DNA of 64,000 bases from the NCBI RefSeq assembly GCF_003478035.1, contig NZ_QUEP01000005.1, positions 62,001-126,000 of the forward strand. Reading direction: 5' to 3'. Below, one piece after another: positions 46,706-62,042 of this stretch. Origin of the DNA: Clostridium sp. OF03-18AA (GTDB taxonomy: Bacteria > Bacillota > Clostridia > Lachnospirales > Lachnospiraceae). A program made the translations under genes and the position numbers. Below the pieces are notes generated by a model. That model had not been told where the DNA came from and searched no databases. It was given only the letters and a program-made list of their open reading frames with translations. Every line of letters starts with the position of its first letter. Within the stretch, counting starts at the first letter, position 1.

Positions 46706-46711
46706 CTTCTT

Positions 46712-46762: not shown

Positions 46763-46776
46763 TTTCCATCTTCGTA

Positions 46777-46956: not shown

Positions 46957-47005
46957 CAAAAGCATTTGCAGGGACAAGTATGCCTTGACGAATGCTTTTT
47001 TTATA
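46957..47005 (+). terminator. Hairpin with T tract just before panD (possible attenuator)
   Basis: AAAAGCATT pairs with AATGCTTTT with a partly paired inside (GGGACAAG … CTTGAC), followed by seven T's, and lies only about 17 bp before panD. A terminator inside the leader suggests transcript-level control; a pan-motif RNA in the region 46815-46990 is possible but was not verified. Confidence 0.55.
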
Positions 47006-47021
47006 AGGAGACCAATAAGAA

Positions 47022-47414
47022 ATGACTGTTGAGATGTTAAAAGGAAAAATTCATCGTGCTACCGTAGTACAGGCCGAACTGGATTATGTCGGAAGTATTA
47101 CTGTCGATGAAGAGCTGCTGGAAGCAGCAGGAATTATGGAATATGAAAAAGTTCAGATCGTGGATGTGAACAACGGAAGCCGGTTTGAAACTTATACGAT
47201 CTGCGGCAAGCGCGGAAGCGGAATGATCTGCCTGAATGGTGCTGCGGCAAGATGCGTAAGCAATGGTGATAAGATCATTATCATGTGTTATGCACAATAT
47301 GAGGCCGAAGAAGCCAAAAAACATAAACCACAGGTTGTGTTTGTAGATGATACGAATAAGATCAGCCGTGTTACAAACTATGAAAAGCACGGATTACTGA
47401 AAGATATGGCATAA
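47022..47414 (+). CDS. panD: Aspartate 1-decarboxylase proenzyme
   Basis: A 130-residue pyruvoyl enzyme that converts aspartate to beta-alanine, one half of pantothenate. It self-cleaves between Gly24 and Ser25 ([10 protein letters not shown]). [16 protein letters not shown], the early Lys9 region, and [17 protein letters not shown] are typical. AAGGAG lies upstream. First gene of a three-gene pantothenate unit. Confidence 0.96.
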
Positions 47415-47509
47415 CGATAAGATTGACTGTAGCTTATCAATAAAAACGAAATTTGTTGAATTCAGGACAAGAGACTATCTCCTAATTTATTTTTTAAAAG
47501 GAGAACATC

Positions 47510-48349
47510 ATGCAGGTAACAAAAACAGTACAGGAAACAAGAGCTTTAATCAAGAACTGGAAAAAAGAAGGAAAAACAATCGGACTTGTGCCGACAATGG
47601 GCTTCCTGCACGAAGGACATGCAAGTCTGATCAAACGGTGCCGCGAAGAGAATGATATCGTCGTCGTATCCGATTTTGTAAACCCAACACAGTTTGGACC
47701 GACCGAAGATCTGGAAGCATACCCAAGAGATTTCAAACGTGACAGCGAACTCTGCGAGAGCCTTGGAGCCGATCTCATCTTTCATCCGGAACCAACAGAT
47801 ATGTACCATGATCCGCATGCATTTGTAAGCATTGATACCTTATCCGATACCCTGTGCGGTAAAACAAGACCCATTCATTTTAAAGGTGTTTGTACGGTCG
47901 TTTCCAAGTTATTCAACATTGTAGCACCGGACAGAGCGTATTTTGGTCAGAAGGATGCACAGCAGCTGGCGATCATCCGCAAAATGGTACAGGATCTGAA
48001 TTTTGATATCCAGATCGTAGGATGCCCGATCATCCGCGAAGAAGACGGCCTTGCCAAATCATCCAGAAATACATATTTAAGTGAAAAAGAAAGAACAGCC
48101 GCTCTTTGTCTTTCAAGAGCCGTAAAAGCCGGTCAGGATACTATCTGTAAGGGAATCAAGGCAGAAGAAGTATTAGCAAAAATGCGTGGGATCATTGAAG
48201 CTGAGCCTCTGGCAAAGATCGATTATGTATCTATGGTAGATGCACTGGATATGCAGCCGGTAGAAAGCGTAGAAAAAGATGTTCTGGTCGCTATGGCAGT
48301 CTATATCGGAAAAACCAGACTGATCGATAACTTCAGCTACGAGGTATAA
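47510..48349 (+). CDS. panC: Pantoate--beta-alanine ligase (pantothenate synthetase)
   Basis: A 279-residue enzyme that joins pantoate to beta-alanine with ATP. Marks are GLVPTMGFLHEGHASLI with the HIGH-type motif, VSDFVNPTQFGPTEDLEAYPRD, DRAYFGQKDAQQLAIIRKM and the KSSRNTYLS loop. It lies 95 bp after panD and 3 bp before the transporter gene. PanB and panE, needed to make pantoate, are absent from the window. Confidence 0.97.
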   Translation: MQVTKTVQETRALIKNWKKEGKTIGLVPTMGFLHEGHASLIKRCREENDIVVVSDFVNPTQFGPTEDLEAYPRDFKRDSELCESLGADLIFHPEPTDMYHDPHAFVSIDTLSDTLCGKTRPIHFKGVCTVVSKLFNIVAPDRAYFGQKDAQQLAIIRKMVQDLNFDIQIVGCPIIREEDGLAKSSRNTYLSEKERTAALCLSRAVKAGQDTICKGIKAEEVLAKMRGIIEAEPLAKIDYVSMVDALDMQPVESVEKDVLVAMAVYIGKTRLIDNFSYEV

Positions 48350-48352
48350 GGG

Positions 48353-49327
48353 ATGGAACACTTAATGAAAAAAGCAGGGAAAGCCAGCTCTTTCCTTACA
48401 AAACATATTGGAATTATCATTATCTGTTTCTCTGTGATCGCATTTTTCTGGCATGACGGATTCGCATGGACAACCAAATATACCTCCACCTTTTTAGGTG
48501 TTGCCATGTTCGGCATGGGACTGACCATTAAGATCGAAGATTTTAAACGGGTTTTTTCAAGACCCAAAGAAATCGTTATCGGATTTGTTGCACAATATAC
48601 GATCATGCCGGTTGTGGCATGGGGCTTATGCAGGCTGATGCAGCTTCCGACCGATCTTGCACTTGGCGTTATTCTGGTGGGATGTTGTCCCGGCGGAACA
48701 GCAAGCAACGTCATTACATATATTGCCGGAGGTGATGTAGCGCTTTCGGTTGGAATGACGATCACTTCCACGCTTGCAGCTCCACTGATGACACCATTAC
48801 TCGTGTATCTGCTTGCCGATGCCTGGGTAGAAGTATCTTTCCTCGCAATGGTAATTTCTGTCGTGAAGGTTGTACTTGTTCCGGTTCTTCTTGGTATTCT
48901 GATCAATTGCTGCTTCGGAAAGCAGATCCAGAAAATATCAGAAGTACTCCCTCTGATTTCTGTTGTGTCGATCGTCATGATCATCAGCGGAATCGTCTCT
49001 GTCAATTTAGAGAAGATTATAAGCTGTGGTCTGCTCGTGCTTGGAGTTGTGGCACTTCACAATCTCTGCGGAATGGGGATCGGACTTGGCGCCGCAAAAC
49101 TTTTACATATCGAATATAATAAAGCCACCGCGATTGCAATTGAAGTCGGAATGCAGAACAGCGGACTTGCCATTTCCCTTGCAGCCGCTAATTTTGCAGC
49201 AAATCCACTGGCTACGCTTCCCGGAGCGATCTTCAGCGTATGGCACAATATATCAGGCTCATTATTTGCCGGAATCCGCAAAGACGGAACCGATATGACA
49301 GAAGCCTATCAGAAAGTTACTGTATAA
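48353..49327 (+). CDS. panS: BASS family transporter, PanS-like
   Basis: A 324-residue membrane carrier of the bile acid:sodium symporter family with about ten helices. Marks are LGVAMFGMGLTIKIEDF, VGCCPGGTASNVITYIAGGD and VGMQNSGLAISLA. In Salmonella, PanS of this family imports ketopantoate and pantoate. Its place 3 bp after panC, with no panB, fits uptake of pantoate that PanC then uses. The symbol rests on this context and is not certain. Confidence 0.82.
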   Translation: MEHLMKKAGKASSFLTKHIGIIIICFSVIAFFWHDGFAWTTKYTSTFLGVAMFGMGLTIKIEDFKRVFSRPKEIVIGFVAQYTIMPVVAWGLCRLMQLPTDLALGVILVGCCPGGTASNVITYIAGGDVALSVGMTITSTLAAPLMTPLLVYLLADAWVEVSFLAMVISVVKVVLVPVLLGILINCCFGKQIQKISEVLPLISVVSIVMIISGIVSVNLEKIISCGLLVLGVVALHNLCGMGIGLGAAKLLHIEYNKATAIAIEVGMQNSGLAISLAAANFAANPLATLPGAIFSVWHNISGSLFAGIRKDGTDMTEAYQKVTV

Positions 49328-49384
49328 ATAAATCTGTTATGATTCACCATATGAACGTGCCGGGAAGATTATCCGGCTAAGGCA

Positions 49385-49430
49385 ACTCCCCCCGCAGAGC
49401 CTTTTTACGAGGATCTGCGGGGGGAGTTTA
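49385..49430 (+). terminator. Terminator of the pan operon
   Basis: AACTCCCCCCGCAGA (in part) pairs with TCTGCGGGGGGAGTT, a very strong stem. A second, weaker hairpin with a T tract follows near 49445-49478. Confidence 0.9.
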
Positions 49431-49550
49431 TTGGCTTTGTTCATTCAAACTCTTTTTCAGAGTGAATTTTTCTTATCCTCTTTTTGCTGTCAAAATAGAC
49501 TGTATAATTTTTTAATGGTTCCATAAATACATCTCCACACGGCTGATCTA

Positions 49551-49636
49551 AAATCTTGTTTTTGTGTAAATTGAATTCTAGAAAATTCTTGTTTTCGTGT
49601 ATAATGCTTGATATAAAAATCTCGTTTTCGTGTTTA
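49551..49636 (+). repeat. Three direct repeats at exact 33-bp period
   Basis: The core CTTGTTTTCGTGT occurs from 49555, 49588 and 49621 (with CTTGTTTTTGTGT and CTCGTTTTCGTGT variants), each preceded by AAAT. The period equals about three helical turns. A TATAAT follows the middle copy. The array stands right before the ATPase remnant and is a likely operator array or phase-ordered binding site. Confidence 0.7.
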
Positions 49637-49651
49637 CGGAGGTGCTTCCAT

Positions 49652-50032
49652 ATGAAAAGAAAACTCTATGACTCTTTAATGCAGTGGAAAACAGAGGAAA
49701 ACGGCAGAACAGCCCTCCTCATGGAAAATATCGTCGCCCAGATGCTCGCCGCCAGCGGTCATAAGCTCTATTTCTACTACAATGCATCCCGCGATGATGC
49801 CTCCAGCCGTATGAAGATCGACTTTCTGATCGCCAAAAGCAAGACCAGCAACCGCCACAATATCTCACCGATCGAGGTGAAGTCCAGTAAAAATTATACG
49901 ATTTCTTCTCTTCAGAAATTTAAAGCCAAATATGATGAACAGCTCCTTGTTCCGTATGTGCTGCATACTGGGGATCTGAAGGAAGAAAATGGGATTTTTT
50001 ATTTGCCGGTGTATATGACGATGCTGCTATAA
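49652..50032 (+). pseudogene. DUF4143-type AAA ATPase with large internal in-frame deletion
   Basis: The 126-residue frame joins two ends of a normally 400-plus-residue protein. Residues 1-23 (MKRKLYDSLMQWKTEENGRT…) are the usual start, just before where Walker A should be. They run directly into MENIVAQMLAASGHKLYFYYN and the C-terminal nuclease-like DUF4143 part (KIDFLI, ISPIEVKSSKNYTISSL, LPVYMTMLL). The whole ATPase core is missing. GGAGG precedes the ATG, so a small protein may still be made. I read it as a deletion remnant. Confidence 0.75.
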
Positions 50033-50078
50033 GCTGAACAATTTCTCAAAGTTTACCCAAAAATTTCTATTATACGTC

Positions 50079-50120
50079 AACAGCCGCCATAGTCAGTTCC
50101 TTTGACCACAGCGGCTGTTG
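50079..50120. terminator. Terminator between the remnant and the next gene
   Basis: CAACAGCCGC pairs with GCGGCTGTTG, followed by ATAATTTTTTC on the plus strand; also at the end of the leftward gene at 50124. Confidence 0.75.
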
Positions 50121-50123
50121 GCA

Positions 50124-50315
50124 TTATAATTTTTTCTTTCTCTTCTCCATGAACCTTTTCACCTCATCTGCTCCATGTAAATATGTGATTTCAAAATCGA
50201 GGCTTTCTTTACGGTGAAGAGACTCCTGATAGGAATCTTCAATTGCATTCGCAAATTTTTCAGTCTGTTCTTTCCCTAATACGATAAAGGTTTTCGTGAT
50301 ACCCGAAGTTGGCAT
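50124..50315 (-). CDS. Small protein of unknown function (63 residues)
   Basis: Not recognised. The product begins MPTSGITKTFIVLGKEQTEK and ends in a Lys-rich tail (FMEKRKKKL). The ATG at 50315 is chosen for GGAG 9 bp upstream; two earlier in-frame ATGs lack a site. The shape, an alpha-beta N-terminus and charged helical end, is like many small antitoxins, but no partner toxin is recognised, so that is only a guess. It is followed by a terminator. Confidence 0.5.
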   Translation of the reverse strand: MPTSGITKTFIVLGKEQTEKFANAIEDSYQESLHRKESLDFEITYLHGADEVKRFMEKRKKKL

Positions 50316-50380
50316 TTTTAACATCTCCATTTATCATATCGCACGTCTAATCATATGCTCCGCTTTTCGGATACTTGTTT

Positions 50381-50800
50381 CTAAGCCCTCTCTTTCCTTT
50401 TACTCTTCACAAAATCATAAATTTTTTCCGCATCATTATAATCCGGAATTGCTGATAAGACAGTACTATAAATTGGCTCAAGCGTTTTCGGAGAGCTCTC
50501 CAGCGCATCTGCAATCTGCTCCAATGACTGGTCTTTTTCTACCTTCTTCATTATCAGGGAAATCCGATATATCTCTCGTCCCTCTTCTTTCCACCGATTC
50601 TCTTCTGTACGAATTTTCATTCGCTTTCCAATCTCTATTCCCTCTGCCCGCGCATCTCTCCGGTCCAATCGTCTCTGATCTTCAATGCTATATTCCATTA
50701 ATAGACACTTTTTTATATCTTTTATACGTTGATTGTCCTGCCAATCCACCAGTTTCTTTAAGCATTTTGCTATCAACTTATCAATTATTTCAAAATACAT
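50381..50800 (-). CDS. C-terminal fragment resembling Rpn / PD-(D/E)XK family transposase-type proteins
   Basis: A 139-residue protein with an AGAGGGG site before its ATG. The helical N-terminus leads to a charged hinge (RRDARAEGIEIGKRMKI) and a tail with SLEQIADALESSPKTLEPIYS, as at the C-terminus of Rpn/YhgA-like nucleases. The catalytic PD-(D/E)XK half is absent, so it is either a truncated copy or a free-standing relative. It lies 65 bp upstream of the 63-residue gene on the same strand. Confidence 0.45.
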   Translation of the reverse strand: MYFEIIDKLIAKCLKKLVDWQDNQRIKDIKKCLLMEYSIEDQRRLDRRDARAEGIEIGKRMKIRTEENRWKEEGREIYRISLIMKKVEKDQSLEQIADALESSPKTLEPIYSTVLSAIPDYNDAEKIYDFVKSKRKERA

Positions 50801-50902
50801 ATCTTTATCCCCTCTTTTATTTCATTATGGATTTTTTGCGCTTCAACCTCAAGCGTGTCCGGTATAAAAAAGGATAAAATTTTTATAAAATAAAACGAGA
50901 AT

Positions 50903-50936
50903 GCCAGAGATCAGCAGCTAATCACTGATCTCTGGC
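50903..50936 (-). terminator. Terminator of the GTPase cassette
   Basis: GCCAGAGATCAG pairs with CTGATCTCTGGC; leftward a T-rich tract follows (CGTTTTATTTTAT). It lies 8 bp after the stop at 50945 and ends the long leftward cassette. Confidence 0.85.
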
Positions 50937-50944
50937 ACCCATTA

Positions 50945-51550
50945 TTATTCATCTACATAAATAAAATCTATCGGTGACAATTTCCTATAACGCACCAGCG
51001 GAATCTTCTTCTCTAACTTCTCAATCTTTTCCCGAATCTCTTTATCCTCATAATTTTCCCACAATCCATTATCCAGATCCCGGTACTTATACCGCTGCAC
51101 CTGAAGTTCCTTCATCTCTTTCAGGATTTCCATCGTCTCGATCGGGAATTTCTTTTGGCACTGGGAGCACTGGCATTCGGTGTCTGAAATAGGACGTATG
51201 TAGTTGTTCATGACTCCGCGGAATTTCGCATACTTCAAATGCAACATAGGAATCTCTACATGAATCAGTGTTCCTCCTATAGCATTCATTCCCGGAAGCA
51301 CTACTCCTATGCATCTTGGAACTTCCAACGGTCCATCTAGTGTCGGTGTGTTCCAGGGATAAGGACTAAGATCCTTGGAATATTCCCATTCGCAATCATA
51401 CGCCTTAGGAACTAATGTATAATGAGGACATGTATGGATTCTCCTGCCCCGCTTGGAATCCGGTGATGCTTTTCCCTTTGCACTTTCCAATGACAAGCGT
51501 TCTGCTTTTTCGCGTTGGAGTTTGCGGGATTTTTTGCTGTCTTTTTTCAT
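50945..51550 (-). CDS. Conserved hypothetical protein with a CxxC zinc-ribbon-like pair
   Basis: Not recognised. The 201-residue product has a very basic start (MKKDSKKSRKLQREKAERL), a C-P-H motif (RRIHTCPHYTLVP), a middle with GVVLPGMNAIGGTLIHVEIPML, and SDTECQCSQCQKKFP, which could bind zinc. It ends in a charged coiled-coil segment. The ATG at 51550 follows GGGGGA. It is the last gene before the cassette terminator, about 100 bp after the 113-residue gene. Confidence 0.6.
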   Translation of the reverse strand: MKKDSKKSRKLQREKAERLSLESAKGKASPDSKRGRRIHTCPHYTLVPKAYDCEWEYSKDLSPYPWNTPTLDGPLEVPRCIGVVLPGMNAIGGTLIHVEIPMLHLKYAKFRGVMNNYIRPISDTECQCSQCQKKFPIETMEILKEMKELQVQRYKYRDLDNGLWENYEDKEIREKIEKLEKKIPLVRYRKLSPIDFIYVDE

Positions 51551-51652
51551 AAGCAATTCCCCCTGGTATTTATTCCTTCCATAGCATTCTATGCAGATAT
51601 TTCATGCTATTTAATAAAGCTTATATCTCTTTCTGTTAAAACCATATTTTTA

Positions 51653-51994
51653 CTAAAACATGCCTCTAATTAACGCTTCCTTCCAGCCTTTTTCGATACA
51701 GATTAATGATTTTTTTCCACCTCTCCAATTAATAGAAACAAGATAAACTTCTTTTTTCTTTCCGCCGATTCCTGCTGCCCAACCTAAAAATGGAACGATC
51801 ATATTCCCCCACATGCCTTTCCAGACAGAGTAAGTTTTCTTATCTGTCTCATCAAGAATATCATAAGCTTGCACATTAGATTTATTGATGCTTATTTTCG
51901 AATTTTCCCCCTCAGTAATGATCTCAAGAAATGATCCTTTTTTTATCTTTTTCCCTTTGTATTCACCTTCAAGAACTACATTGAATTCTGACAT
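51653..51994 (-). CDS. Small protein of unknown function (113 residues)
   Basis: Not recognised. The N-terminal half reads as short beta strands (FNVVLEGEYKGKKIKKGSFLEI), then a stretch with VWKGMWGNMIVPFLGWAAGIGGKKKEV whose middle could touch a membrane, and a final VSINWRGGKKSLICIEKG. AGAGGAG precedes the ATG. It is AT-rich like the GTPase genes next to it and is read in the same direction, so it is likely part of the same unit. Confidence 0.6.
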   Translation of the reverse strand: MSEFNVVLEGEYKGKKIKKGSFLEIITEGENSKISINKSNVQAYDILDETDKKTYSVWKGMWGNMIVPFLGWAAGIGGKKKEVYLVSINWRGGKKSLICIEKGWKEALIRGMF

Positions 51995-52070
51995 ACTTAT
52001 CTCCTCTCTATTCCCTAATGATCAAACTCTATCAAATAATCATTGCTCTCTTGTTTTTATCCATCGCTAT

Positions 52071-53230
52071 TTATATAGCTAATTTTGATGCTTTTTTCAT
52101 TTGAGCTTTAAATTCATGCTGCATTTCTCTCTGAACTTTTTTAGTAGATAAATCCGCAAGACTAATTTTTCCCTTTGCGATTTGGCCTAAGATAACAATA
52201 TATGTTTCACCAAGAGCAGTTGTTAACGTTGCTGCTGTTGCTGCTGAAATTGCACCACCTGCAATCGTTCCAACTCCCGGAATCATTTTAAAAATATTAC
52301 TCACTATTTTTTTCCTGCACTCGTTGCTCCAGTTGTTCCAAGAATTGCATAGATAATAGTCATATACTTTTCTTTCTCAATTCTTAAGCCAAATGCTGCT
52401 GTGATTTTTGCTATCATATCCATCTGTACGGTCATAATAAGCGGAGCATCAGAAGTAGGTATAGGCAAACCTCCTATCACCATTACCGTTATGACTGTAC
52501 TTTTGATAACTATCCTTGCTTTTTCTTGTTTAAGCGCTATGCTAGCATCCTGAATGGATATAAAAGTTGCTTTCACATAGTCAGGAAGAATATCATTCAT
52601 TTCCCATGCGAGTTGCTCTATGCCATGTGCTTTTATTTCCATTCCACCATCAGTTGGAAAATTTTCCGATAGCACCGGGATGATTTTTTTAATTGGTAAA
52701 TTTTCCTTTTCAATTTCTTCTTTTATTTGTTTCACATTTTCCTTTAAAATGGATTTTGTCAAAATAACAACAAGAGGAACATTACAGTATTTTGTTTTTA
52801 TTGCAAGGTCTCTCAAAAATTGAATTTCCGTTGGTTCAATACGCCCGGATGATGCGTTAATACAATACCATACACAATGGATTGCCTGATTTACATCTCC
52901 TGTCTCAGTTCCATTATTAATCAAATCAACAACATCATCCAATAGATTTTGGGCCGTATTATCTCCCTTTAATTCCATCCCTGGTGTATCGTAAAGAACT
53001 AATGGAATATCTTTCTTTTCAATTTTTCTAATAGCTTGTGTAACAGGTTTTCCTATGCCCGTCTCTGCTAATTTCTGACCAAAAATAGTATTAATAAGTG
53101 TACTCTTTCCAACGCCTGTTTTACCAATTATCACAATATTTAAAGTCGTAAAGTTACTATATTCATCCTTTATTTTATTTCCTATATCCTGCAGTATCTC
53201 TAGATTCTCATATGAATCAGCCATTGTCAT
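52071..53230 (-). pseudogene. DUF697-type GTPase 1, interrupted by a -1 frameshift
   Basis: The first frame (53230-52304, 308 residues) has the G-protein loops GKTGVGKS (36-43), DTPGMEL (from 81) and LTKS in place of NKxD, then a hydrophobic DUF697-like region. It stops at SAGKK-TAG after seven A's (52307-52313 on the plus strand). The next frame (52304-52071) continues as VSNIFKMIPGVGTIAGGAIS, matching the paralogue at 53608. One extra A restores an unbroken protein of about 385 residues. A GTG overlapping the stop could also allow re-initiation. The start may be 53230 or 53224. Confidence 0.75.
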
Positions 53231-53549
53231 TGTGCTCCTTCCCTTTAGTTCTTTTAACTTTTACATATTCAGATGTCCAATCCTCATCAAAAATAGGTTT
53301 TTTTAGAGATGTTGTATATAGCTTTTCAGATAACACTGAAATTAATCTAGGTATTGCAAATATTATTCCTATGGTACATATCACTCTGTTGGTTATTCTC
53401 TCTGCTAATCTCTTTCTTTTTTGCGTTTGAATTAAATTTTTTAGTTCTTCTATTTTGGGCATAAGCTGTGTATTCATAGATATCTTCACAGTGTTTTCCA
53501 CCTCTGCTTTTATAAGATTTTCAAAAAATTCTTTCTCCTTGTCTTCCAT
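53217..53549 (-). CDS. Small membrane protein with coiled coil (110 residues)
   Basis: Not recognised. Charged helices (MEDKEKEFFENLIKAEVENT and MPKIEELKNLIQTQKRKRL) are followed by one hydrophobic segment (NRVICTIGIIFAIPRLISV, about residues 54-72) and a polar tail. It overlaps the start of GTPase 1 by about 14 bp, which suggests coupled translation and a shared complex. Ribosome site is GGAG-rich (CTGGAGGAATTAGT). Confidence 0.65.
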   Translation of the reverse strand: MEDKEKEFFENLIKAEVENTVKISMNTQLMPKIEELKNLIQTQKRKRLAERITNRVICTIGIIFAIPRLISVLSEKLYTTSLKKPIFDEDWTSEYVKVKRTKGKEHNDNG

Positions 53550-53607
53550 ACTAATTCCTCCAGTAATAACTTTTTTCTAAACAAAGTCTCTTTCTCCTTT
53601 TTCAATA

Positions 53608-54699
53608 TTATCTATCTCTTTTTTCCCTTAATTGTGTATTTAGTTCTTGTTTCAAAATTTTCTGTCCTTCTTTGGTTGTTAAATCACTTACCCGCATTTC
53701 ACCTTTACTAATTTTTATCAAAATTTTAATATATGCATTTCCTAATGCTGTAGTTAAAAATGCTGCTGTCGTTGCAGAAATTGCACCACCAGTCACTGTT
53801 CCTATTCCTGGAATCATTTTAAAAATATTAGACACCACTGTTTTTCCAATAAATGTTGTCCCCATTGTACCTATTGCCATTGTTGCAATAGTTGTTAATG
53901 CTGCTTTTTGAATCGGAATATGAAAAATTGTAGTGATATGCATCAACATTGTTACCTGTGTAGGTATTAAAAGTGCAGCGTCTGAAAATGGAATTGGGAC
54001 CGCACCTGTCGTAGCAGCTGCTGCAGCTGCGATTTTAACTGCTTTATATGCCGCCTTTTGTTTTAAATCTAGATTGGACATCTGAATCGCTGCAAACGTA
54101 TCCTTTTGATCATCTGGCAAAACACTAAACATTATATCTATTAGTTTATCTACTCCAAAAGCTTTAATTATCCCTTGCCCATCAACATGATAATCTTTCG
54201 CCAAAACCGGTATAACCTGTACGATTGAAAGCTTTTCCTGTTCAATTTCTCGCTTTAGTTCTGTTACACAATTTTTTTGAAGTGCCTGTGTAAGAACCAC
54301 AATTATCGGGATATTATATTTTTTAGTTTTTTCTATAAAATTTTTCAAGAATTCAAGTTCTGCCGGTTCTATTTTACTCAAAAGGGTATTTATACAATAG
54401 CAAACACAATGAATCATTTGACTCTGATCACCGCTAGTGTTACATGTCCTAACCAATTTAACCATTTCTTTAAGAAGATTATCTGCAGAATTATTTCCGC
54501 CTAATTCCAGACCTGGTGTATCATAAATCGAAATTGGCATTCCCATTTTTTCAATCTTATGAATCTTTTGTGTGACTGGTTTTCCAAGCCCTTCTTCTGT
54601 TATACTTTCTCCGAATATGCTATTAACTAAGGTACTTTTTCCAACCCCAGTCTTACCAATAATTAAAACATTCAGTTGTGCTAATTTATCATCCACCAT
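53608..54699 (-). CDS. DUF697-type GTPase 2
   Basis: A 363-residue GTPase with a hydrophobic C-terminal domain. G1 is GKTGVGKS (15-22), G3 is DTPGLEL, and the G4 position reads VLTQA rather than NKxD, so base specificity may be relaxed. From about residue 215 it has Ala-rich membrane-like segments (AVKIAAAAAATTGAVPIPFSD, then SNIFKMIPGIGTVTGGAISA), as in proteins of the YeeP/Era-like plus DUF697 class. It is an intact paralogue of GTPase 1. The close pairing suggests they work together, perhaps as a hetero-dimer at the membrane. Confidence 0.82.
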   Translation of the reverse strand: MVDDKLAQLNVLIIGKTGVGKSTLVNSIFGESITEEGLGKPVTQKIHKIEKMGMPISIYDTPGLELGGNNSADNLLKEMVKLVRTCNTSGDQSQMIHCVCYCINTLLSKIEPAELEFLKNFIEKTKKYNIPIIVVLTQALQKNCVTELKREIEQEKLSIVQVIPVLAKDYHVDGQGIIKAFGVDKLIDIMFSVLPDDQKDTFAAIQMSNLDLKQKAAYKAVKIAAAAAATTGAVPIPFSDAALLIPTQVTMLMHITTIFHIPIQKAALTTIATMAIGTMGTTFIGKTVVSNIFKMIPGIGTVTGGAISATTAAFLTTALGNAYIKILIKISKGEMRVSDLTTKEGQKILKQELNTQLREKRDR

Positions 54700-54700
54700 G

Positions 54701-56107
54701 TTAATTTCTCCCTTTGAAAAAATTTTTCAAACCATTTTTTCCTTCTCGTTCTCCAAATGTTTCATCCATCTCTTCAGGTGAATGCATAATCTTATCATGT
54801 TCCACTCCATCTGTCTCCACCAGTTTAGTAGATGCATCTGCCTTTCTCTTCTGGCTCGCCATCCTACTGTCAATCGTCCTCATCTGTACCAAAAAATAGC
54901 GATACTCTGCCTCCACACTTTCACAGTAGGCCACATATATTTCATTAAGTCTGATCTGATTCTGCTGCAGGCGTATCTCCATCTGGCGCAGATATTCTTT
55001 TTCTTCACCTTTTGAAGCTGCCATAATGTCCTTATAGAATTTAGCAATCTTCTGATCCAGCACAGCTCCAACACGGACATTAATTTCTCTCAGTACAAGA
55101 TAAGACAGTCGTAATGACGCCGCAAAGTTAAAATGCAGACAGAATGTCAATGCATTTCCACCGCTTCTAAGCGCTGCATCCCCAACGTCAATCAGACAAA
55201 GTGTTCCATTAGAAACCAACTGCATCATTCGGAAGCTGCCGTATGTATTAGATGGTATGCAGTCTTCCCATCGTTTTTTATCCACTAAATGGCGTTTGAT
55301 AGCCCAACATGCACTGGTCGCTAATTGCTGGAACACTACCGGAATCGCAGTTGCAGCGCCAAACCTTGCATCATATCCCTGCTGGAATGTTCTAGCCATA
55401 ACTTCTGCGAATGTCTGCCGATCCTTTCCTACCTGAAATCTTCCAAATTTACAAAACTGAGTCAGTTCCATAAACGGCATAGGTACGCCGCTTCCGCGTC
55501 CTCCGCTGCCTCGGCTTCCTGTACTTCCTGCTGCATCTGACATAATATGTCCCAGCCAGTTCGTAAAACCGGCAAAGAGCTTTGCGGCAAAATTTCCACC
55601 TCGTAACTCAAAATTCCCGTCCTGAGTATCAATGCGAATCAGACGTCCATTTGAAACATAACTTGCTTTATTCTGAAACTGATCTAAAATCGAGAAAAAT
55701 AATCCCACAATATCCGGTGAATGTGCCAACGATTTGAGATGATGATTTTGAGGGGAAATCGGGAATTTTCTTCCCACTTCTTCCATATTTTTCTGATCAT
55801 AATTGACTTTATATGTCCTCTCCAGAAAACCAATAGCGGAAGCTATACTGTTCTCATTCCCATCTTTGGGGTTCCACCCAGAGAACTTCGCAAATTTCTT
55901 TACCAAGGTATCCACCTGGTGATCTGTTAACTGGTTAAGCGCTGATTTTCTGCCCGGCATCTGCACAAAGAAAACATCAATGAATCCAGCCATCGCACCG
56001 CAAAATGCTGCTAAACCAAATTCATATTTATCACACCAGTCCATCTGTACATTTAATTCCGCTACACTCGTACAATAACGTGAATCTGAAATCTGTTTCT
56101 GCATCAT
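54701..56107 (-). CDS. Conserved hypothetical protein (468 residues) of the GTPase cassette
   Basis: Not assigned to a named family. Segments that look conserved are FCGAMAGFIDVFFV near residue 35, HSPDIVGLFFSILDQFQNKASYVSNGR, LFAGFTNWLGHIMSDAAGSTG, a Gly/Ser/Arg-rich loop, MPFMELTQFCKFGRF, and a C-terminal coiled coil (about 370-430) with a charged end. Two or three amphipathic hydrophobic stretches suggest membrane contact, but no signal peptide. It ends 1 bp before the ATG region of GTPase 2. Confidence 0.7.
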   Translation of the reverse strand: MMQKQISDSRYCTSVAELNVQMDWCDKYEFGLAAFCGAMAGFIDVFFVQMPGRKSALNQLTDHQVDTLVKKFAKFSGWNPKDGNENSIASAIGFLERTYKVNYDQKNMEEVGRKFPISPQNHHLKSLAHSPDIVGLFFSILDQFQNKASYVSNGRLIRIDTQDGNFELRGGNFAAKLFAGFTNWLGHIMSDAAGSTGSRGSGGRGSGVPMPFMELTQFCKFGRFQVGKDRQTFAEVMARTFQQGYDARFGAATAIPVVFQQLATSACWAIKRHLVDKKRWEDCIPSNTYGSFRMMQLVSNGTLCLIDVGDAALRSGGNALTFCLHFNFAASLRLSYLVLREINVRVGAVLDQKIAKFYKDIMAASKGEEKEYLRQMEIRLQQNQIRLNEIYVAYCESVEAEYRYFLVQMRTIDSRMASQKRKADASTKLVETDGVEHDKIMHSPEEMDETFGEREGKNGLKNFFKGRN

Positions 56108-56135
56108 ATCACCTCTTCTACACCATATACTCTGC

Positions 56136-56984
56136 CTATCTGCTTATTGGAATTAACTCATTTATTCTCACTGCAAGTGACTGTGAATTATTTATCATCG
56201 TTTGCAATTTGAGAACTTCCCGATTAGAAAATCTGCTATAATCCTGGGCTTTCATTTTTTGCAGTTCAGTTAATTCTCTTTTTACCGTCTGATCGAGTTT
56301 TTCAGTTTCAATTTTGAGCACATCCACTCTCTTCTGAATGCCCTGCAGCCGCGTCATATCTATTCTCATCTTCGTAATCTCCACTTCTGCATTCTGTGCT
56401 TTCTTTTTATTATCTGAAACCATCTTAACTCCCGCCGCTACAGCACCGCTGATTCCTATCGCAATACCAACTGGACCTGCCAGCGCAAGAAGTGCTTGTC
56501 CACCTACGACACCAGCCCCACCAACTGTCAATGCCCCACCTCCCAGCCATGCAAGCGCAGCATTTGCAGCAGCAGCCCCACTAAGAGAGCTGATTGCGGC
56601 TCCGGTTGATGCTGTACCAAATGTAGTTGCTGCTGCCAATGCTACATTAGGTCCAAGCAGCGCAACTCCTGCTCCTGCGGCAGTACTCCTTCCTAACATC
56701 ATTCCAGATTTATTCCGAGGTGATTTGTATTTATATTTTTTGAGCTGTTTTTCAAATTTCTGATAATCCTGATTTATTTTTTTGCTTTTTAAATCGTACT
56801 CATATGGACGATTCGATATAGCCTGTATGTACTCTTCACAACTATGGAGCGTTGCTACCGCCCCTTTTCTGACTTCGCACAACACTTCACAGTGGCTCAA
56901 CGTCTCCTGAAAGACCTTCTGATACTCTTTTCTCTCCTGCTCCAATTTCTCTTCCATCTGATTCTTTGCATCCGAAAAGAACAT
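56136..56984 (-). CDS. Coiled-coil protein with Ala/Gly-rich membrane hairpin (282 residues)
   Basis: Not assigned to a named family. Coiled coils at both ends (about 8-100 and 195-270) surround a long Ala/Gly-rich hydrophobic core (about 105-190) with GTASTGAAISSLSGAAAANA, LAWLGGGALTVGGAGVVGG and ALAGPVGIAIGISG. Such glycine-zipper cores resemble those of pore-forming or membrane-inserting proteins. The ATG at 56984 follows GGAGGAG. It lies 28 bp before the 468-residue gene and 35 bp after the WYL regulator, so it probably belongs to one unit with both. Confidence 0.75.
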   Translation of the reverse strand: MFFSDAKNQMEEKLEQERKEYQKVFQETLSHCEVLCEVRKGAVATLHSCEEYIQAISNRPYEYDLKSKKINQDYQKFEKQLKKYKYKSPRNKSGMMLGRSTAAGAGVALLGPNVALAAATTFGTASTGAAISSLSGAAAANAALAWLGGGALTVGGAGVVGGQALLALAGPVGIAIGISGAVAAGVKMVSDNKKKAQNAEVEITKMRIDMTRLQGIQKRVDVLKIETEKLDQTVKRELTELQKMKAQDYSRFSNREVLKLQTMINNSQSLAVRINELIPISR

Positions 56985-57019
56985 TATAATTCTCCTCCCG
57001 TTTTCTGCTCGCAGCCATT

Positions 57020-57964
57020 TTATTCGCTGATCATTTCCACTGCACTCCCCTGCCCCTTCAACCACATATCCACCCCATCACCACCAAACACCTCCGCCTC
57101 AATCACCTTGCCACCCTCGCCATCTCTAATCACCTTCGCCGTCGGCAGCCGGTCCAGTATCGCCTCCACCGACATCCCCGTATACTTAAACCGGATTTTC
57201 TTCAACTTCCCGCCATACATAAACTGCACCCGTTTCCGGAATTCTCCTTCCTCGAAGCGGTCTTTATACGGCACATTAAAATGTTCGTCGGTGATTTTAA
57301 AGGACTTGATGCGGTCGATCCGGTAGATGGTTGGGTAGATATCATCTTTATTAGTGAATTCCTTTTCCCGGTCGATATTCCGCAGGAATGCCGCCAGATA
57401 AAAATAGTACTCCGAGAACAGGATCCCAACCGGCTCGATGGTCCTCTTGACAAATCTGGGCTCTTTCATTCGCTCGTACTTGATCTCCATGACATAGTGA
57501 TTCTGTACGGCCTGCGCGATGTCCCAGAGGCCGGGGATGATGAATTTTCCGTGATGTGGTTCGATGTAGTGAAATTTTTCGTTAGATATGAGTGAGTCAA
57601 CTGCTGCCCTGCTCTTTTGCGGGACACAGCTTGCTGTCAGTTTTTCGAGGATCGGAAACATTTCCTCTCTCCTCATGGAGCGGCTTTCCAGAAGGATCTT
57701 GCACACAGCCAGGATCTCCCCGTTATTTAACAGAGGTTTTTCCTCCCGCTGCAGACGGTATCCGCCGGCTTTCCGGTCGTGGATGACATTCTGGTTTAGG
57801 CCCTGTTCCTGAAAAAAGCACCTCAGAGCTTCCACGTCTCGCTGAACGCTGCGCTCAGTGATATGAAACTTGTCCGCCATTTCCTTTTTTGACAGGACTT
57901 CTCCGTTCACAAGTCTGGAATAGATCTGAAGCAGACGGTCTGACTTACCTGTTGTACTGTTCAT
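57020..57964 (-). CDS. WYL domain transcriptional regulator
   Basis: A 314-residue regulator with an N-terminal HTH (LLQIYSRLVNGEVLSKKEMA … ITERSVQRDVEAL) and a WYL domain (about 140-225; MEIKYERM, EPVGILFSEYYFYLAAF, YRIDRIKSFKIT) plus the WCX C-terminus (about 235-314). WYL proteins sense nucleic-acid ligands and often control defence or stress genes. The ATG at 57964 follows GGGAGGGAG. It is first in the leftward cassette and starts from a strong promoter. Confidence 0.9.
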   Translation of the reverse strand: MNSTTGKSDRLLQIYSRLVNGEVLSKKEMADKFHITERSVQRDVEALRCFFQEQGLNQNVIHDRKAGGYRLQREEKPLLNNGEILAVCKILLESRSMRREEMFPILEKLTASCVPQKSRAAVDSLISNEKFHYIEPHHGKFIIPGLWDIAQAVQNHYVMEIKYERMKEPRFVKRTIEPVGILFSEYYFYLAAFLRNIDREKEFTNKDDIYPTIYRIDRIKSFKITDEHFNVPYKDRFEEGEFRKRVQFMYGGKLKKIRFKYTGMSVEAILDRLPTAKVIRDGEGGKVIEAEVFGGDGVDMWLKGQGSAVEMISE

Positions 57965-58018
57965 ACTCCCTCCCATGCATTCTATGGCTTTATAAGCATA
58001 TAATACTATCTGTTAGTT

Positions 58019-58047
58019 ATAATATTATATTTTTCAGCTCATGTCAA
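58019..58047 (-). promoter_or_regulatory. Promoter of the WYL-GTPase cassette
   Basis: On the minus strand TTGACA (58047-58042) and TATTAT (58024-58019) are 17 bp apart, within an AT-rich region shared with the divergent XRE gene. Inverted TATAATATTATA text near the -10 may be an operator. Confidence 0.7.
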
Positions 58048-58092
58048 TTTTTGTCGTGATTCGCTATCATAAATATATTCGGAGGAAAATTC

Positions 58093-58329
58093 ATGAAATC
58101 GATTCACACTGAAAAATATCGCCAAATTGGCCTGAAGATCGCCTATTACCGCAAGCTCCGTGGTCTCACCCAGGAAGAGCTTGCTGAACAGGTCGGACTG
58201 ACTCCCGCTTACATCGGGCACCTCGAAGCGCCGAATATTTCCAAGGCACTGTCTTTAGATACCCTCTTCGATATCGCCGATGCCCTGCATGTCGAGGCTC
58301 AGAAGTTTCTTGTATTCGAGGAATCATGA
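58093..58329 (+). CDS. XRE family HTH regulator
   Basis: A 78-residue single-domain Cro/CI-type DNA-binding protein. The HTH is GLKIAYYRKLRGLTQEELAE, then VGLTPAYIGHLEAPN and the LDTLFDIADALHV helix. GGAGG precedes the ATG. It is divergent from the WYL regulator and could share the intergenic control region; no target is visible. Confidence 0.88.
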   Translation: MKSIHTEKYRQIGLKIAYYRKLRGLTQEELAEQVGLTPAYIGHLEAPNISKALSLDTLFDIADALHVEAQKFLVFEES

Positions 58330-58406
58330 TACTGTTATTATAGCATCTTATATGGACAAAAATTGTCATCGATGTCATTTATTGTCATTATTTCCAATTT
58401 TTTTGC

Positions 58407-58455
58407 AAAAAAAGGCTTTTCAGAGATTGTTCTCCAAAAAGCCTTTTTCTTTTTT
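58407..58455 (+). terminator. Terminator of the XRE gene
   Basis: AAAAAAGGCTTTT pairs with AAAAGCCTTTTT, with an inner GAGA/TCTC, followed by CTTTTTT. It probably also serves the convergent aldo/keto reductase gene. Confidence 0.85.
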
Positions 58456-58528
58456 GCACATTTCACTTTTCGAATGTGCAAAATTTGCATATGTAAGTTC
58501 CGAATATGCAGATCATTTCTTATTTGTC

Positions 58529-59566
58529 CTAGAAATTTCCCGGCAGGATCTCCTTACCCGCAAGAACCTCCTCATAATCCTTCAGGTTTCTCTGCAGCAA
58601 CTCCGGTGTATTCAGTCCATACGGGCATTTGCTCATGCAGTGGCCGCAGTGGAGACAGTCTTTGATCTTCATCATCTTCGCCTGGACTTCCGGTGTGAGC
58701 TGGAGGTGGGACGGGGATCTTCTGAGAAGAAGAGACATTCTCGCACAGGTGTTGATCTCGATGCCGGCCGGGCATGGCATGCAGTAGCCGCAGGCACGGC
58801 AGAAGCTGCCGAACAGTTGCTTTCTGTCATTCTCGATCAGGGCGCGGATCTCGTCATCCATCACCGGCGGATTGTCGATGTAGCTTAAGAATTCATCGAG
58901 TTCGCTCTCCTTCTGGACACCCCAGATCGGGAGCACACTGTCGTACTGTGCCTGGAATGCATAAGCCGCTTTCGAGTTATTGATAAGGCCGCCGGACAGC
59001 GCTTTCATCGCGATAAAGCCCATGTCCGCCTTCTTACATTTCTCCATGAGCGCCAGATCCGCATCGCTGCAGAGATAGCAGAACGGGAACTGTAAGGTCG
59101 CGTAAAGGCCGGAATCGACCGCCTCGTTTGCGACCGCGAGACGATGGTTCGTGATACTGATGAAACGGATCTTTCCCTGTTCTCTCGCTTTTAATGCCGC
59201 ATCGTAAAGGCCGGATTCATCGCCCGGCTTCGGACAGACTGCCGGGTTGTGGAACTGATATACATCGATGCAGTCCGTCTTTAACAGACGCAGGCTGGTC
59301 TCAAGATCTTTCCAGAATTCATCCGCTGTTTTTGCCGCGGTCTTTGTTGCGAGATAGATATGGTTTCTGACATCACTGAGCGCATAACCGATCTTCTCCT
59401 CACTGTCGGAGTAAGCTCTCGCCGTATCGAAATATGTAATTCCGCCGTCATATGCCTTTCTCAAAAGCTTTGCCGCCTCTTCCTTCGTGATCCTCTGGAT
59501 CGGAAGCGCGCCGAATCCGTTCTTGTTGACCGTGATCCCGGTCTTTCCAAGTGTAACTGTCGTCAT
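58529..59566 (-). CDS. Aldo/keto reductase with C-terminal [4Fe-4S] ferredoxin-like domain
   Basis: A 345-residue fusion. The barrel domain (about 1-255) carries catalytic-type residues in YFDTARAYSDSEEKIG and the KTDCIDVYQFHN strand. The tail has two cysteine clusters, CRACGYCMPCPAGI and CLHCGHCMSKCPYG, able to hold two Fe-S clusters. This fused type is common in anaerobes. The ATG at 59566 is chosen for GGGG 8 bp upstream. The substrate is unknown. Confidence 0.9.
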   Translation of the reverse strand: MTTVTLGKTGITVNKNGFGALPIQRITKEEAAKLLRKAYDGGITYFDTARAYSDSEEKIGYALSDVRNHIYLATKTAAKTADEFWKDLETSLRLLKTDCIDVYQFHNPAVCPKPGDESGLYDAALKAREQGKIRFISITNHRLAVANEAVDSGLYATLQFPFCYLCSDADLALMEKCKKADMGFIAMKALSGGLINNSKAAYAFQAQYDSVLPIWGVQKESELDEFLSYIDNPPVMDDEIRALIENDRKQLFGSFCRACGYCMPCPAGIEINTCARMSLLLRRSPSHLQLTPEVQAKMMKIKDCLHCGHCMSKCPYGLNTPELLQRNLKDYEEVLAGKEILPGNF

Positions 59567-59710
59567 GAAGATATCCCCTTTCCCGATATTGTACGGCCCT
59601 GCGGCCTGATCATGTTTTTTCACAGCTGAACATGCTGTCTTTTTTATGAATTGCCCGCAGACAGCTGACATTTCTGGTTACAGTACACGGTCACTCCATG
59701 CCCGCGCACT

Positions 59711-59818
59711 GTAACAGGATTTTGCCGATGCTTCGCATTCCAAATCGGCAAAATCCGCGGCCATAACGGTATCATACGGAATTTTCAGTTCAGAAAATTC
59801 CTACCCGTGAAAAATAAC
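59711..59818. repeat. Two interspersed repeats upstream of the aldo/keto reductase
   Basis: At 59711-59759 lies the inverted copy of the hairpin at 43765-43812 (GGATTTTGCCGAT with ATCGGCAAAATCC). At 59783-59818 lies a third copy of the TACCCGTGAAAARTAAC repeat, here with the hairpin GAATTTTC-AGTTCA-GAAAATTC. The rest of the 356-bp gap to 59922 shows nothing else that I can support. Confidence 0.7.
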
Positions 59819-59922
59819 CATTTCTGAACTGCGGGCAAATGATATTCCAGATTATAATACTTTCCGACTCACAGCAGGCAAAATACCGTCAAAAAACATT
59901 ATTTCATGCTTCACGCAGCTGC

Positions 59923-60117
59923 CTACTGCTTCCCTGCGTCCAGCATCTCCTTCAGAGCCTCATCCCCATCATCGATCCACGCGTCCTCTTCGTCCGCGTT
60001 GAGACCGAGGAATTTCGCCAGAGTCCGCTCATCGTCACTGTTGTTCCACTCATCGACATAGTCGTCGATCGCTTCAAATTCAATTTCTCCTGCCTGGTAC
60101 TTTTCTTTGAATGTCAT
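59923..60117 (-). CDS. Small acidic protein overlapping the GntR gene (64 residues)
   Basis: Not recognised. A very acidic protein starting MTFKEKYQAGEIEFEAIDDY and with DEWNNSDDERTLAKFLGLN, then an acidic tail. AAGGAG stands 7 bp before the ATG, and its first 38 bp overlap the end of gntR in another frame, which indicates deliberate coupling. It may be a small adaptor; similar acidic 60-70-residue proteins are common in Lachnospiraceae. Confidence 0.7.
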   Translation of the reverse strand: MTFKEKYQAGEIEFEAIDDYVDEWNNSDDERTLAKFLGLNADEEDAWIDDGDEALKEMLDAGKQ

Positions 60118-60790
60118 TTTCCTGCTCCTTCAGATTCTTGAGAATCGTGATCTCCTGATTATCGATGTGTTCCCGCACAGCCATCTTCGCCTCCTGGATA
60201 TGGCGCAGTGTCAGTGCCTTTAAAATGTGTTCATGCTCCACCATGAGGATCTGGCGCTTGTCCGCATCCTTGATATACTCCAGGCGGTAGCGGTACATCT
60301 GCTCTCTCAGGTTATTTAAGATCTGCACCAGCTTCTGATTCTTCGTGCTGTTGTAGATGATCTCATGGAAGCTCTCATCTGTCTGGGCGATCTGCATCGC
60401 ATCTCCGTTCTCGATCGCAGCCTTGAAGTCAACTTCCGCTTTGTTTAACTCATCAAGCTCTTCCTCGGTGATCCTCTGGCATGCGAGGTCGATCGCAAGC
60501 TCCTCTAAGGAACGGCGCACCTCCAGAACATCCCGAAGGTTGCTCTCGGAGATCTTTGCAACCTCCGCTCCCTTTCTCGGGATCATGAGGACCAGACCTT
60601 CCAGCTCCAGTTTCCGGATCGCCTCTCGGATCGGGGTACGGCTCACACCAAGCCGCTCCGCAAGCTGGATCTCCATCAGGCGCTCGCCCGGTTCCAGTTC
60701 TCCTTTTAAGATTGCCTGACGCAGGGTCTTGAATACGACATCCCTGAGCGGCAGATATTCATCCATATTTACTTCAAAATGATTTGTCAT
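60080..60790 (-). CDS. GntR family transcriptional regulator (FadR subfamily)
   Basis: A 236-residue regulator. The winged HTH is AILKGELEPGERLMEIQLAE, then LGVSRTPIREAIRKLELEGLV. An FCD ligand domain follows (about 85-220) with the metal-type His in FHEIIYN and EHEHILKAL and HIDNQE near the end. It lies 15 bp after ispE. The palindrome TTGTATACAA in the ispE promoter region is a plausible target, giving self-regulation. The ligand is unknown. Confidence 0.9.
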   Translation of the reverse strand: MTNHFEVNMDEYLPLRDVVFKTLRQAILKGELEPGERLMEIQLAERLGVSRTPIREAIRKLELEGLVLMIPRKGAEVAKISESNLRDVLEVRRSLEELAIDLACQRITEEELDELNKAEVDFKAAIENGDAMQIAQTDESFHEIIYNSTKNQKLVQILNNLREQMYRYRLEYIKDADKRQILMVEHEHILKALTLRHIQEAKMAVREHIDNQEITILKNLKEQENDIQRKVPGRRN

Positions 60791-60805
60791 CGTGTCTTTA
60801 CTCCT

Positions 60806-61702
60806 CTATCTGGCTTTCTTCCGGTTGTAGAATTCAGTCAGGTACACCTGGCGGGTCAGACGCCCGTCATCCGCCTCTTTAAGCGCCTGGCAGGTCTTTT
60901 CCGCGAGTTCCCTGTCCTTATAGATACCGAACACGGTAGGGCCGCTGCCGCTCATCAGGGAACCGCAGGCGCCGTTCTCCATCATCATACTCTTGATCCT
61001 TGCGATCTCCGGGTGATCCGGGATCGTCACCGTCTCGAGGACATTTCCAAGACGGCTGATCACGCCGTCAAGGTCGCCGTTTCTGATCGCCTCAGTCATT
61101 CCGTCGATATCCGGATGTTCCTCCGGTGCAAGCTCATTTACCCGCAGTTTTCCGTACACAGCTTTCGTCGAGACGGAGATCTGCGGCTTTGCGATCACGA
61201 GATGGCACTTCGGGGATGGCGGGAGCTCCGTTAAGATCTCGCCGATCCCCTCGGAAAGCGCCGTTCCGCGCATGATGCAGTACGGGACATCCGCACCGAG
61301 CTTTACGCCCCGCTCCATGAGTTCCTTCTTCGTAAATCCGAGATCAAACATCCGGTTCACGCCGACTAAAACAGCTGCCGCATCGGTACTTCCGCCGGCC
61401 ATGCCCGCCGCCACCGGGATATATTTGCGGATCCTGATGGTCACGCCGTCTTTGATCCCTGCCTCATCTAAAAGAAGCTTTGCCGCGCGCCACGCAAGGT
61501 TTCCTTCCCCGTCCGGCACGAACGGAAGGTTCGTCTCCGTCTTGATCACGCCGTCCTCCGTCCGGTCCATGTCGATCCGGTCATACAGGTTCACGGTCTG
61601 CATGATCATGCGGACTTCATGATAGCCGTCCTCTCTCTTCCGGACCACATCCAGCCCAAGGTTGATCTTTGCGTAGGCTTTCAGCTCTAAATGGTCTTTC
61701 AT
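60806..61702 (-). CDS. ispE: 4-diphosphocytidyl-2-C-methyl-D-erythritol kinase
   Basis: A 298-residue GHMP kinase of the MEP isoprenoid pathway. It phosphorylates the 2-OH of CDP-methylerythritol. Marks are AKINLGLDVVRKREDGYHEV, the ATP loop PVAAGMAGGSTDAAAVL and the late MSGSGPTVFGIY. AAGGTG precedes the ATG. First gene of ispE-gntR-small-protein. Confidence 0.96.
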   Translation of the reverse strand: MKDHLELKAYAKINLGLDVVRKREDGYHEVRMIMQTVNLYDRIDMDRTEDGVIKTETNLPFVPDGEGNLAWRAAKLLLDEAGIKDGVTIRIRKYIPVAAGMAGGSTDAAAVLVGVNRMFDLGFTKKELMERGVKLGADVPYCIMRGTALSEGIGEILTELPPSPKCHLVIAKPQISVSTKAVYGKLRVNELAPEEHPDIDGMTEAIRNGDLDGVISRLGNVLETVTIPDHPEIARIKSMMMENGACGSLMSGSGPTVFGIYKDRELAEKTCQALKEADDGRLTRQVYLTEFYNRKKAR

Positions 61703-61851
61703 CTTGTCACCTTCTATTTTCCATGTGTGTGATCCGGATCATGTCGCCTCTCACGCTCGCAGATCTTCGCTTACGCTCCATTCATCGCAAAAAAGGCACC
61801 ATCCGGATCAAATTCCTGCCGAAACAGGCTTACACATTGTATTTATGTTGT

Positions 61852-61861
61852 TTGTATACAA
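61852..61861. promoter_or_regulatory. GntR-type operator in the ispE promoter region
   Basis: A perfect TTGTATACAA palindrome, with a degenerate half site (ACATTGTATTTATG) beside it. On the minus strand a plausible promoter, TTAAAC, 17 bp, TAAATA, would span it. FadR-type GntR proteins often bind such sites. The rest of the 340-bp gap (61703-62042) shows no further feature. Confidence 0.55.
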
Positions 61862-62042
61862 TGTTTAATATACACGATGATGACACCATTTGACAAGAGA
61901 AATCTGAGAGAAATAAATGACTTTTTTTCCTATTTGCCGCTATATTTCGAATTCACGATCGGCAGGAACGGCGCCTGCCATTTCATTCGGAATTTTCCGC
62001 CCCGGCTCATCCGCAGCATGCCTCGATCGCAGGCGTGGTTCC

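Follow-up and report, generated by a model that had tools for sequence, protein, structure and literature searches.

A WYL-linked gene block of Clostridium sp. OF03-18AA combines Bunzi- and PDC-M09-related proteins with DUF697-type GTPases in a candidate immunity operon

What does the minus-strand gene block at positions 50945–57976 of a 64,000-nucleotide stretch of the Clostridium sp. OF03-18AA genome (contig NZ_QUEP01000005.1, positions 62,001–126,000; this whole stretch is called the window) encode, and does it belong to a described defence system? The best explanation that we can offer, and to which we give about an even chance of being right, is a WYL-controlled, membrane-acting immunity operon directed against phages or mobile DNA, in which a core of the Bunzi/PDC-M09 type (M09A and BnzB) would be joined by an accessory module of GTPase 1, a small membrane partner and GTPase 2. 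We read the block as a defence locus because two of its proteins strongly match the known-system protein BnzB and the candidate PDC-M09A, and because the core recurs in other genomes and restriction genes adjoin some of the related loci. Core and GTPase module are taken as one joint operon because such GTPases recur with WYL, M09 or BnzB parts elsewhere (loci L148, L150, L152, L153 and L026). The defence function put forward in a preliminary description of this DNA is therefore supported by homology and context, including recurring WYL/M09/Bnz/GTPase sets; its mechanism is what we infer.

The genes named in that description were placed correctly: they lie on the minus strand between 57976 and 50945, with spacing from a 14-nt overlap (GTPase 2 gene with the 110-residue gene) to gaps of about 100 nt, and with one base between the BnzB and GTPase 1 genes. 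They form a single block that runs from a promoter-like site (58047–58019) to the terminator that had also been predicted, an 18-pair hairpin at 50940–50899, in the order WYL, 282-residue protein, 468-residue protein, GTPase 1, 110-residue protein, GTPase 2, 113-residue protein and 203-residue protein. The features are:

58093–58329, plus strand: divergent XRE-type helix-turn-helix (HTH) gene, possible second regulator (Pfam HTH_3, E 2e-12)
58019–58047, minus strand: sigma-70-like promoter, TTGACA-17-TATTAT (11 of 12 consensus positions)
57020–57976, likely start 57964, minus strand: WYL-domain transcription regulator, 318 residues (Pfam WYL, PADLOC WYL)
56136–56984, minus strand: PDC-M09A, 282 residues (PADLOC PDC-M09A)
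54701–56107, minus strand: BnzB-type protein, 468 residues, probably integral membrane (PADLOC BnzB)
53608–54699, minus strand: GTPase 1, 363 residues, G domain and DUF697 domain (Pfam, above cut-off)
53217–53549, minus strand: small coiled-coil protein, 110 residues, one hydrophobic segment (residues 52–78, hydropathy 2.17)
52304–53230, minus strand: GTPase 2, first 308 residues (G domain and start of DUF697), early frame end (Pfam, above cut-off)
52307–52313, minus strand: run of seven A where the GTPase 2 frame breaks
52071–52304, minus strand: C-terminal part of GTPase 2, out of frame, 77 residues (56% identity to GTPase 1)
51653–51994, minus strand: 113-residue protein, function not assigned, loosely attached (no Pfam, PADLOC or NCBIfam match)
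50945–51556, minus strand: 203-residue protein, function not assigned, loosely attached (no Pfam, PADLOC or NCBIfam match)
50899–50940, minus strand: intrinsic terminator at the operon end (stem of 18 pairs followed by a T-rich tail)

The coiled-coil protein of 282 residues and the 468-residue protein had been treated as unknowns, which no longer holds, as both match models of defence proteins. The former matches PADLOC PDC-M09A over nearly its full length (E 4e-83, model positions 2–279 of 282, with a query lacking the start methionine). It consists of a coiled coil, a hydrophobic core rich in Gly and Ala and another coiled coil, and 19 of the 20 columns that are invariant in an alignment of 24 rows fall into the Gly/Ala core. 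A scan of the PDB gave weak matches of the coiled-coil sort only (best E 0.004). A pore former like NheB/NheC was considered for M09A and rejected: the window protein has an NCBIfam match at E 7e-7, but only one of 24 family members matched, and shared coiled-coil composition probably accounts for it.

The latter protein matches PADLOC BnzB with E 5e-126 over profile positions 158–481 of 504 and thus lacks the N-terminal third of the model (positions 1–157), and its C-terminal stretch of 104 residues resembles PDC-M09B (E 1e-5, profile positions 372–476). BnzB is probably an integral membrane protein, and its family is large (2161 relatives among 7998 candidates scored); proteins identical over the full length to the BnzB and the GTPase 1 of the window are present in the protein database (P0001 and P0121, respectively). 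The residues D26, D44, E96, H122, H123, H129, H187, D191, D246, R248 and D307 are invariant in 137 rows, and the histidines and aspartates among them suggest an enzyme or ion site. Pfam gave nothing above cut-off for M09A or BnzB, and in a scan of 27 BnzB proteins with E up to 10 no Pfam family matched more than three. The AlphaFold2 model built from 137 sequences reached a predicted local distance difference test score (pLDDT) of 91.4, compared with 50 for a poor earlier model from 27 sequences; searched with Foldseek against the PDB and viral libraries, the good model had no relative at E 0.001, and VIA scores in the fold search were middling only. A membrane (metal) hydrolase of the YdjM type, whose H/D motifs look alike by eye, was rejected for BnzB, the hhalign score of 17.5 lying within those of the controls (11.9–21.5 for 30 column-shuffled profiles, 24.7 for the reversed one).

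Is the block then one of the known systems? Millman and colleagues are said to have defined Bunzi in 2022 as BnzA plus BnzB. The window resembles Bunzi in its BnzB match and in the TerB genes of related loci (L003, L211 and L219, with that of L212 below the Pfam cut-off), but it matches BnzB over part of the model only and adds WYL, M09A and the GTPases. No BnzA partner was matched among nine window proteins at E 0.1 with PADLOC, which recognised BnzA in L088 (E 4e-177), and no Pfam match to TerB occurred among the window proteins scanned. Bunzi is listed with TerB (PMC10952713) and counted among phage defence systems of unexplained mechanism (PMC12926258). Likeness to PDC-M09, a system of A and B components, lies in the near full-length M09A and in an M09A-M09B operon (L148) that also holds a WYL and a DUF697 gene; in the window, however, the B slot is taken by BnzB, and M09B is matched only by the C-terminal stretch of that protein. 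Judged from sequence, the cassette is neither Bunzi nor PDC-M09 by its defining parts, but clearly kin to them. The earlier statement that no known system has this exact set thus stands for the GTPase combination, for which we found no precedent, and falls for the core, which belongs with Bunzi and PDC-M09. The literature search found nothing on PDC-M09, on DUF697 and phage defence, or on a dynamin, GIMAP or Eleos link; among the papers listed, none looked to deal with the present combination.

The recurrence of the core was followed in the best 80 of 207 BnzB loci, whose BnzB is at most 55% identical to that of the window; scoring in all genome searches was confined to a handful of top candidates per genome, so that the counts are lower bounds. 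In 38 of these 80 loci an M09A-like gene is found no more than 1.2 kb from BnzB, six times before it, as in the window, and 32 times after it. Where the latter arrangement was read, a protein of about 84 residues with a CxxCxxCC motif lies between the two (PF03692 in the two scanned). A WYL gene is found up to three genes upstream of BnzB in 10 of the 80 loci (E 1e-10), with the order WYL-M09A-BnzB in L003 and WYL-BnzB-CxxCxxCC protein-M09A in six loci. PDC-M09A itself was detected in 25 of 328 genomes of the one family searched (centre G228), at 28 loci, L148 among them, of which a few are cut by contig ends. The slot beside M09A varies: it can be filled by BnzB, PDC-M09B, PDC-M40B (L216, E 1e-37) or a fusion of peptidase M48 with BnzB (L225), and L242 has a fusion of M09B with M09A. 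Such an exchangeable slot resembles conflict systems. Restriction genes stand nearby in several loci. L003 has two GmrSD genes, L209 has a type IV enzyme (E 5e-202), L242 has one too, encoded by a shorter frame, and in L243 a type IIG enzyme is located three genes away from a weak relative of M09B. Candidate neighbours were selected by eye and then verified with PADLOC in these four loci, which does not amount to a rate.

Two variants of the slot deserve separate mention. In L225 (4769–7183) peptidase M48 is fused to a BnzB-like domain with an M09A gene near. In L210 (5936–7492), L211 (5858–7498), L215 (270–1997) and L216 (2539–4158) a protein of 518–575 residues stands in place of BnzB beside the CxxCxxCC gene and M09A; it has a hydrophobic part and, by eye, an HNH-like stretch, which Pfam did not confirm in the two scanned (L210 and L216), and in L216 it is PDC-M40B according to PADLOC.

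In the window the core is joined to two GTPases. Pfam scores of GTPase 1 exceed the cut-offs for MMR_HSR1, AIG1, Septin and DUF697, and those of GTPase 2 the cut-offs for MMR_HSR1, Septin and AIG1. For AIG1 the scores are 39.1 and 33.1 bits (cut-off 27), and for DUF697 (PF05128) GTPase 1 scores 32.7 bits against a cut-off of 27.7, with the broken GTPase 2 piece below it at 18.3. Both proteins carry the G1 motif GKTGVGKS and the G3 motif DTPG, with a G4 that is atypical by eye, and motifs and family scores place them in the septin/AIG1 class of P-loop GTPases; no PADLOC model matched them well. Their profile also matches the structures of septin, GIMAP7 (E 8e-8) and Irgb10 (E 1.5e-4). In contrast to the GIMAP, septin and immunity-related GTPase (IRG) proteins of eukaryotes, the window GTPases are bacterial, have a DUF697 tail and share an operon with M09A and BnzB. 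Eleos is the name for the LeoABC bacterial dynamins. The G domain of GTPase 2 matches LeoBC (E 4e-12, positions 59–180 of 601) and some M09A-like proteins weakly match its C-terminal part (L019, E 4e-7; window M09A, 0.007), but a full-length Leo match is lacking, which places the cassette outside Eleos, and the window GTPases have the DUF697 tail. As a lead, the partial likenesses of GTPase and M09A to LeoBC suggest a dynamin divided over several proteins.

That the second GTPase is a paralogue of the first was borne out (46% identity), yet its frame is broken: it ends in TAG right behind seven A (52313–52307), and the remainder, 56% identical to residues 289–359 of GTPase 1, continues in another frame at 52304–52071. 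The frame may have been lost recently, or the break may reflect slippage or misassembly of the homopolymer; intact relatives of about 384 residues exist (e.g. P0165). Among relatives of GTPase 2, 37 had enough upstream DNA for a comparison and three more had too little. Of the 37, 17 are close (E 1e-95 or better), and 11 of these 17 have a small open reading frame related to the 110-residue protein immediately ahead of the GTPase 2-like gene; none of the 20 weaker ones does. The search used the window protein together with its counterparts in L107 and L108, which match each other and count among the 11, some of which may be near-identical strains. The small protein and GTPase 2 form a conserved pairing, the best supported new pairing of this analysis. 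One GTPase protein of 577 residues (P0123) has, by eye, two G domains and a single C-terminal DUF697-like tail, a layout that would suit GTPases acting in pairs.

How often do such GTPases accompany the core? At E 1e-30, relatives of GTPase 1 were found in 16 of 299 genomes of the family of G007 (17 matches; at most six candidates per genome were scored and some contexts are cut by contig ends), and a search of 300 genomes from the G010 family at E 1e-60 gave none. WYL, M09A or M09B genes adjoin the GTPase match in four of these 17 contexts, which had been collected without regard to such neighbours. L148 has the order WYL-M09A-M09B-DUF697, the last without a G domain; in L152 M09B is followed by three GTPases; L153 (3926–11517) has WYL, three tandem GTPases and a HerA-like ATPase; and L149 is described below. 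Three GTPases and a HerA-like ATPase are also found in L228 (4657–12085), without WYL directly upstream, the ATPases of L153 and L228 having 1057–1131 residues. L151 is a GTPase pair, and the remaining contexts are single GTPases, mostly among unrelated genes. WYL stands up to four genes upstream of the GTPase in 3 of the 17 contexts (binomial P about 1e-5, with 27 WYL domains in the 16 genomes and 2,800 genes per genome assumed). Among 18 genomes selected for carrying BnzB, five had any GTPase match; these BnzB-selected genomes include the loci WYL-GTPase-GTPase-154 residues-BnzB (L150) and BnzB-GTPase (L026), and in another BnzB locus (L001) a weak GTPase match lies about 7 kb away. A search for M09B gave seven matches in 6 of 319 genomes, and two of the three strong ones (E 1e-118 or better) adjoin GTPase or DUF697 genes. 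The link between GTPases and core thus recurs but is uncommon, which makes the GTPases accessory rather than core.

Several observations weigh against a joint operon. A GTPase of this kind stands beside M09A in 1 of 28 M09A loci and beside BnzB in 1 of 80 BnzB loci (L026), and no WYL, M09 or Bnz gene is visible next to the GTPase in 13 of the 17 contexts, many of these GTPases standing alone among unrelated genes. The preliminary description was to count as refuted if homologues of its eight genes did not occur together elsewhere, and the cassette falls short on this point: the exact set was not met again in the loci compared, where no relatives of the 113- and 203-residue proteins were seen either. 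GTPase 2 is broken, and base composition sets the GTPase module apart from M09A and BnzB, as if the two had separate origins: third-position GC is 0.22–0.27 in both GTPases and the 110-residue gene (0.18 in the out-of-frame tail) versus 0.38–0.39 in the 282- and 468-residue genes. With 0.64, or host-like, in the WYL gene, 0.34 in the 113-residue gene and 0.46 in the 203-residue gene, the cassette is a mosaic, AT-rich compared with most of the window (about 0.6).

This compositional step, the small protein and GTPase pair standing alone elsewhere (L107, L108 and L146) and the rarity of GTPases beside M09A or BnzB are what would be expected if two defence-type insertions, an M09A-BnzB module and a mobile module of small protein and GTPases, had landed side by side without a joint mechanism. 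We consider this rather unlikely, given that the association recurs in varied gene orders (L148, L150, L152 and L026), that WYL and GTPases are adjacent above chance and that a single base separates BnzB from GTPase 1. WYL regulators also control genes outside defence, and several single GTPases of the family have, judged by eye, ordinary neighbours such as the enolase gene; the block might accordingly be a stress operon whose GTPases serve general envelope or stress maintenance. The BnzB and M09A matches and the restriction neighbours speak against such a role, as do GTPase homologues of 37% identity, which viral contigs and plasmids of Klebsiella carry as accessory genes, and we regard it as improbable. 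Still less probable, in our view, is that a once working system is decaying and now inactive in this strain: the frame break of GTPase 2 and a short nearby frame (49556–50032) resembling the end of DUF4143, below cut-off, would fit a remnant, but the cassette is otherwise free of frame breaks, the protein database contains identical full-length copies of BnzB and GTPase 1, and a break in a homopolymer could stem from assembly error or slippage.

If the WYL-controlled immunity operon is the correct explanation, the parts might act as follows. By analogy with its family, the WYL protein would control the promoter on infection, perhaps together with the product of the divergent HTH gene. BnzB would sit in the inner membrane, as its sequence suggests, and M09A would oligomerise and insert beside it. 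The GTPases would be tethered to the membrane by the DUF697 tail, GTPase 2 also by the small coiled-coil protein, whose gene is its conserved neighbour and which may contact it. On an infection cue, GTP binding would lead to GTPase assembly, upon which M09A and BnzB would perturb or reseal the membrane and end phage growth, either by killing the infected cell or by blocking infection. GTPase 2 may be inactive in this genome, in which case GTPase 1 alone may serve.

More tentatively, and as a generalisation that we hold to be somewhat doubtful, Bunzi and PDC-M09 could be two ends of one modular family of membrane immunity, in which WYL-controlled M09A scaffolds take exchangeable partners (BnzB, M09B, PDC-M40B or protease fusions). 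One branch would use GIMAP/IRG-like DUF697 GTPases in pairs or triples, with a dedicated small membrane partner, as the switch that infection triggers; it would be a bacterial, split-dynamin equivalent of the GTPase immunity that interferon induces. The separately catalogued Bunzi, PDC-M09 and PDC-M40 would then be tied into one family of constant scaffold and exchangeable partners, and the BnzB branch with GTPases would offer a mechanistic handle on Bunzi through nucleotide-binding and membrane-assembly mutants.

As to control and boundaries, the WYL protein matches Pfam WYL above cut-off (E 2e-8) and PADLOC WYL (E 2e-23), and a similar divergent HTH gene lies less than 700 bp upstream in 4 of 20 WYL genes preceding such cassettes, a few of the 20 being fragments or repeats of one locus. 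Promoter-like sites number 17 in the region versus 20.4 in shuffles, so the operon promoter is to be read as a consensus match only. The motif CATAGAATGC occurs upstream of the 203-residue gene (51579–51593) and of WYL (57972–57986), which is not above chance (two matches in the window; at least two in 13 of 100 shuffles). The flanks, judged by eye, are ordinary chromosomal genes. There are no tRNA genes in the window and no Rfam match at 46000–62000, and no integration site was found, the direct repeats at 47000–61000 being short and imperfect in the 20 of 27 families viewed.

Related GTPases also occur in other settings. L149 (4082–9311) contains WYL, a fusion of DUF697 with a GNAT acetyltransferase, an endonuclease/exonuclease/phosphatase-like protein and a protein of 758 residues, maybe another WYL-controlled cassette. 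Genes named by eye precede the pair of small protein and GTPase: recombinase-like ones in L107 and L108, and a restriction-like gene of helicase type in L146 (1–4314). IMG/VR viral contigs encode such GTPases (in 16 of 19 loci the match spans most of the query), as do 73 plasmid records, 36 of them from Klebsiella. The one plasmid record examined also encodes thymidylate synthase and ribonucleotide reductase, much as phage-plasmids do. The DUF697 GTPase stands alone as an accessory gene in the Klebsiella plasmid pX39-7 (L087) and in the IMG/VR contigs L109–L122, and such single plasmid or viral GTPases possibly serve superinfection exclusion.

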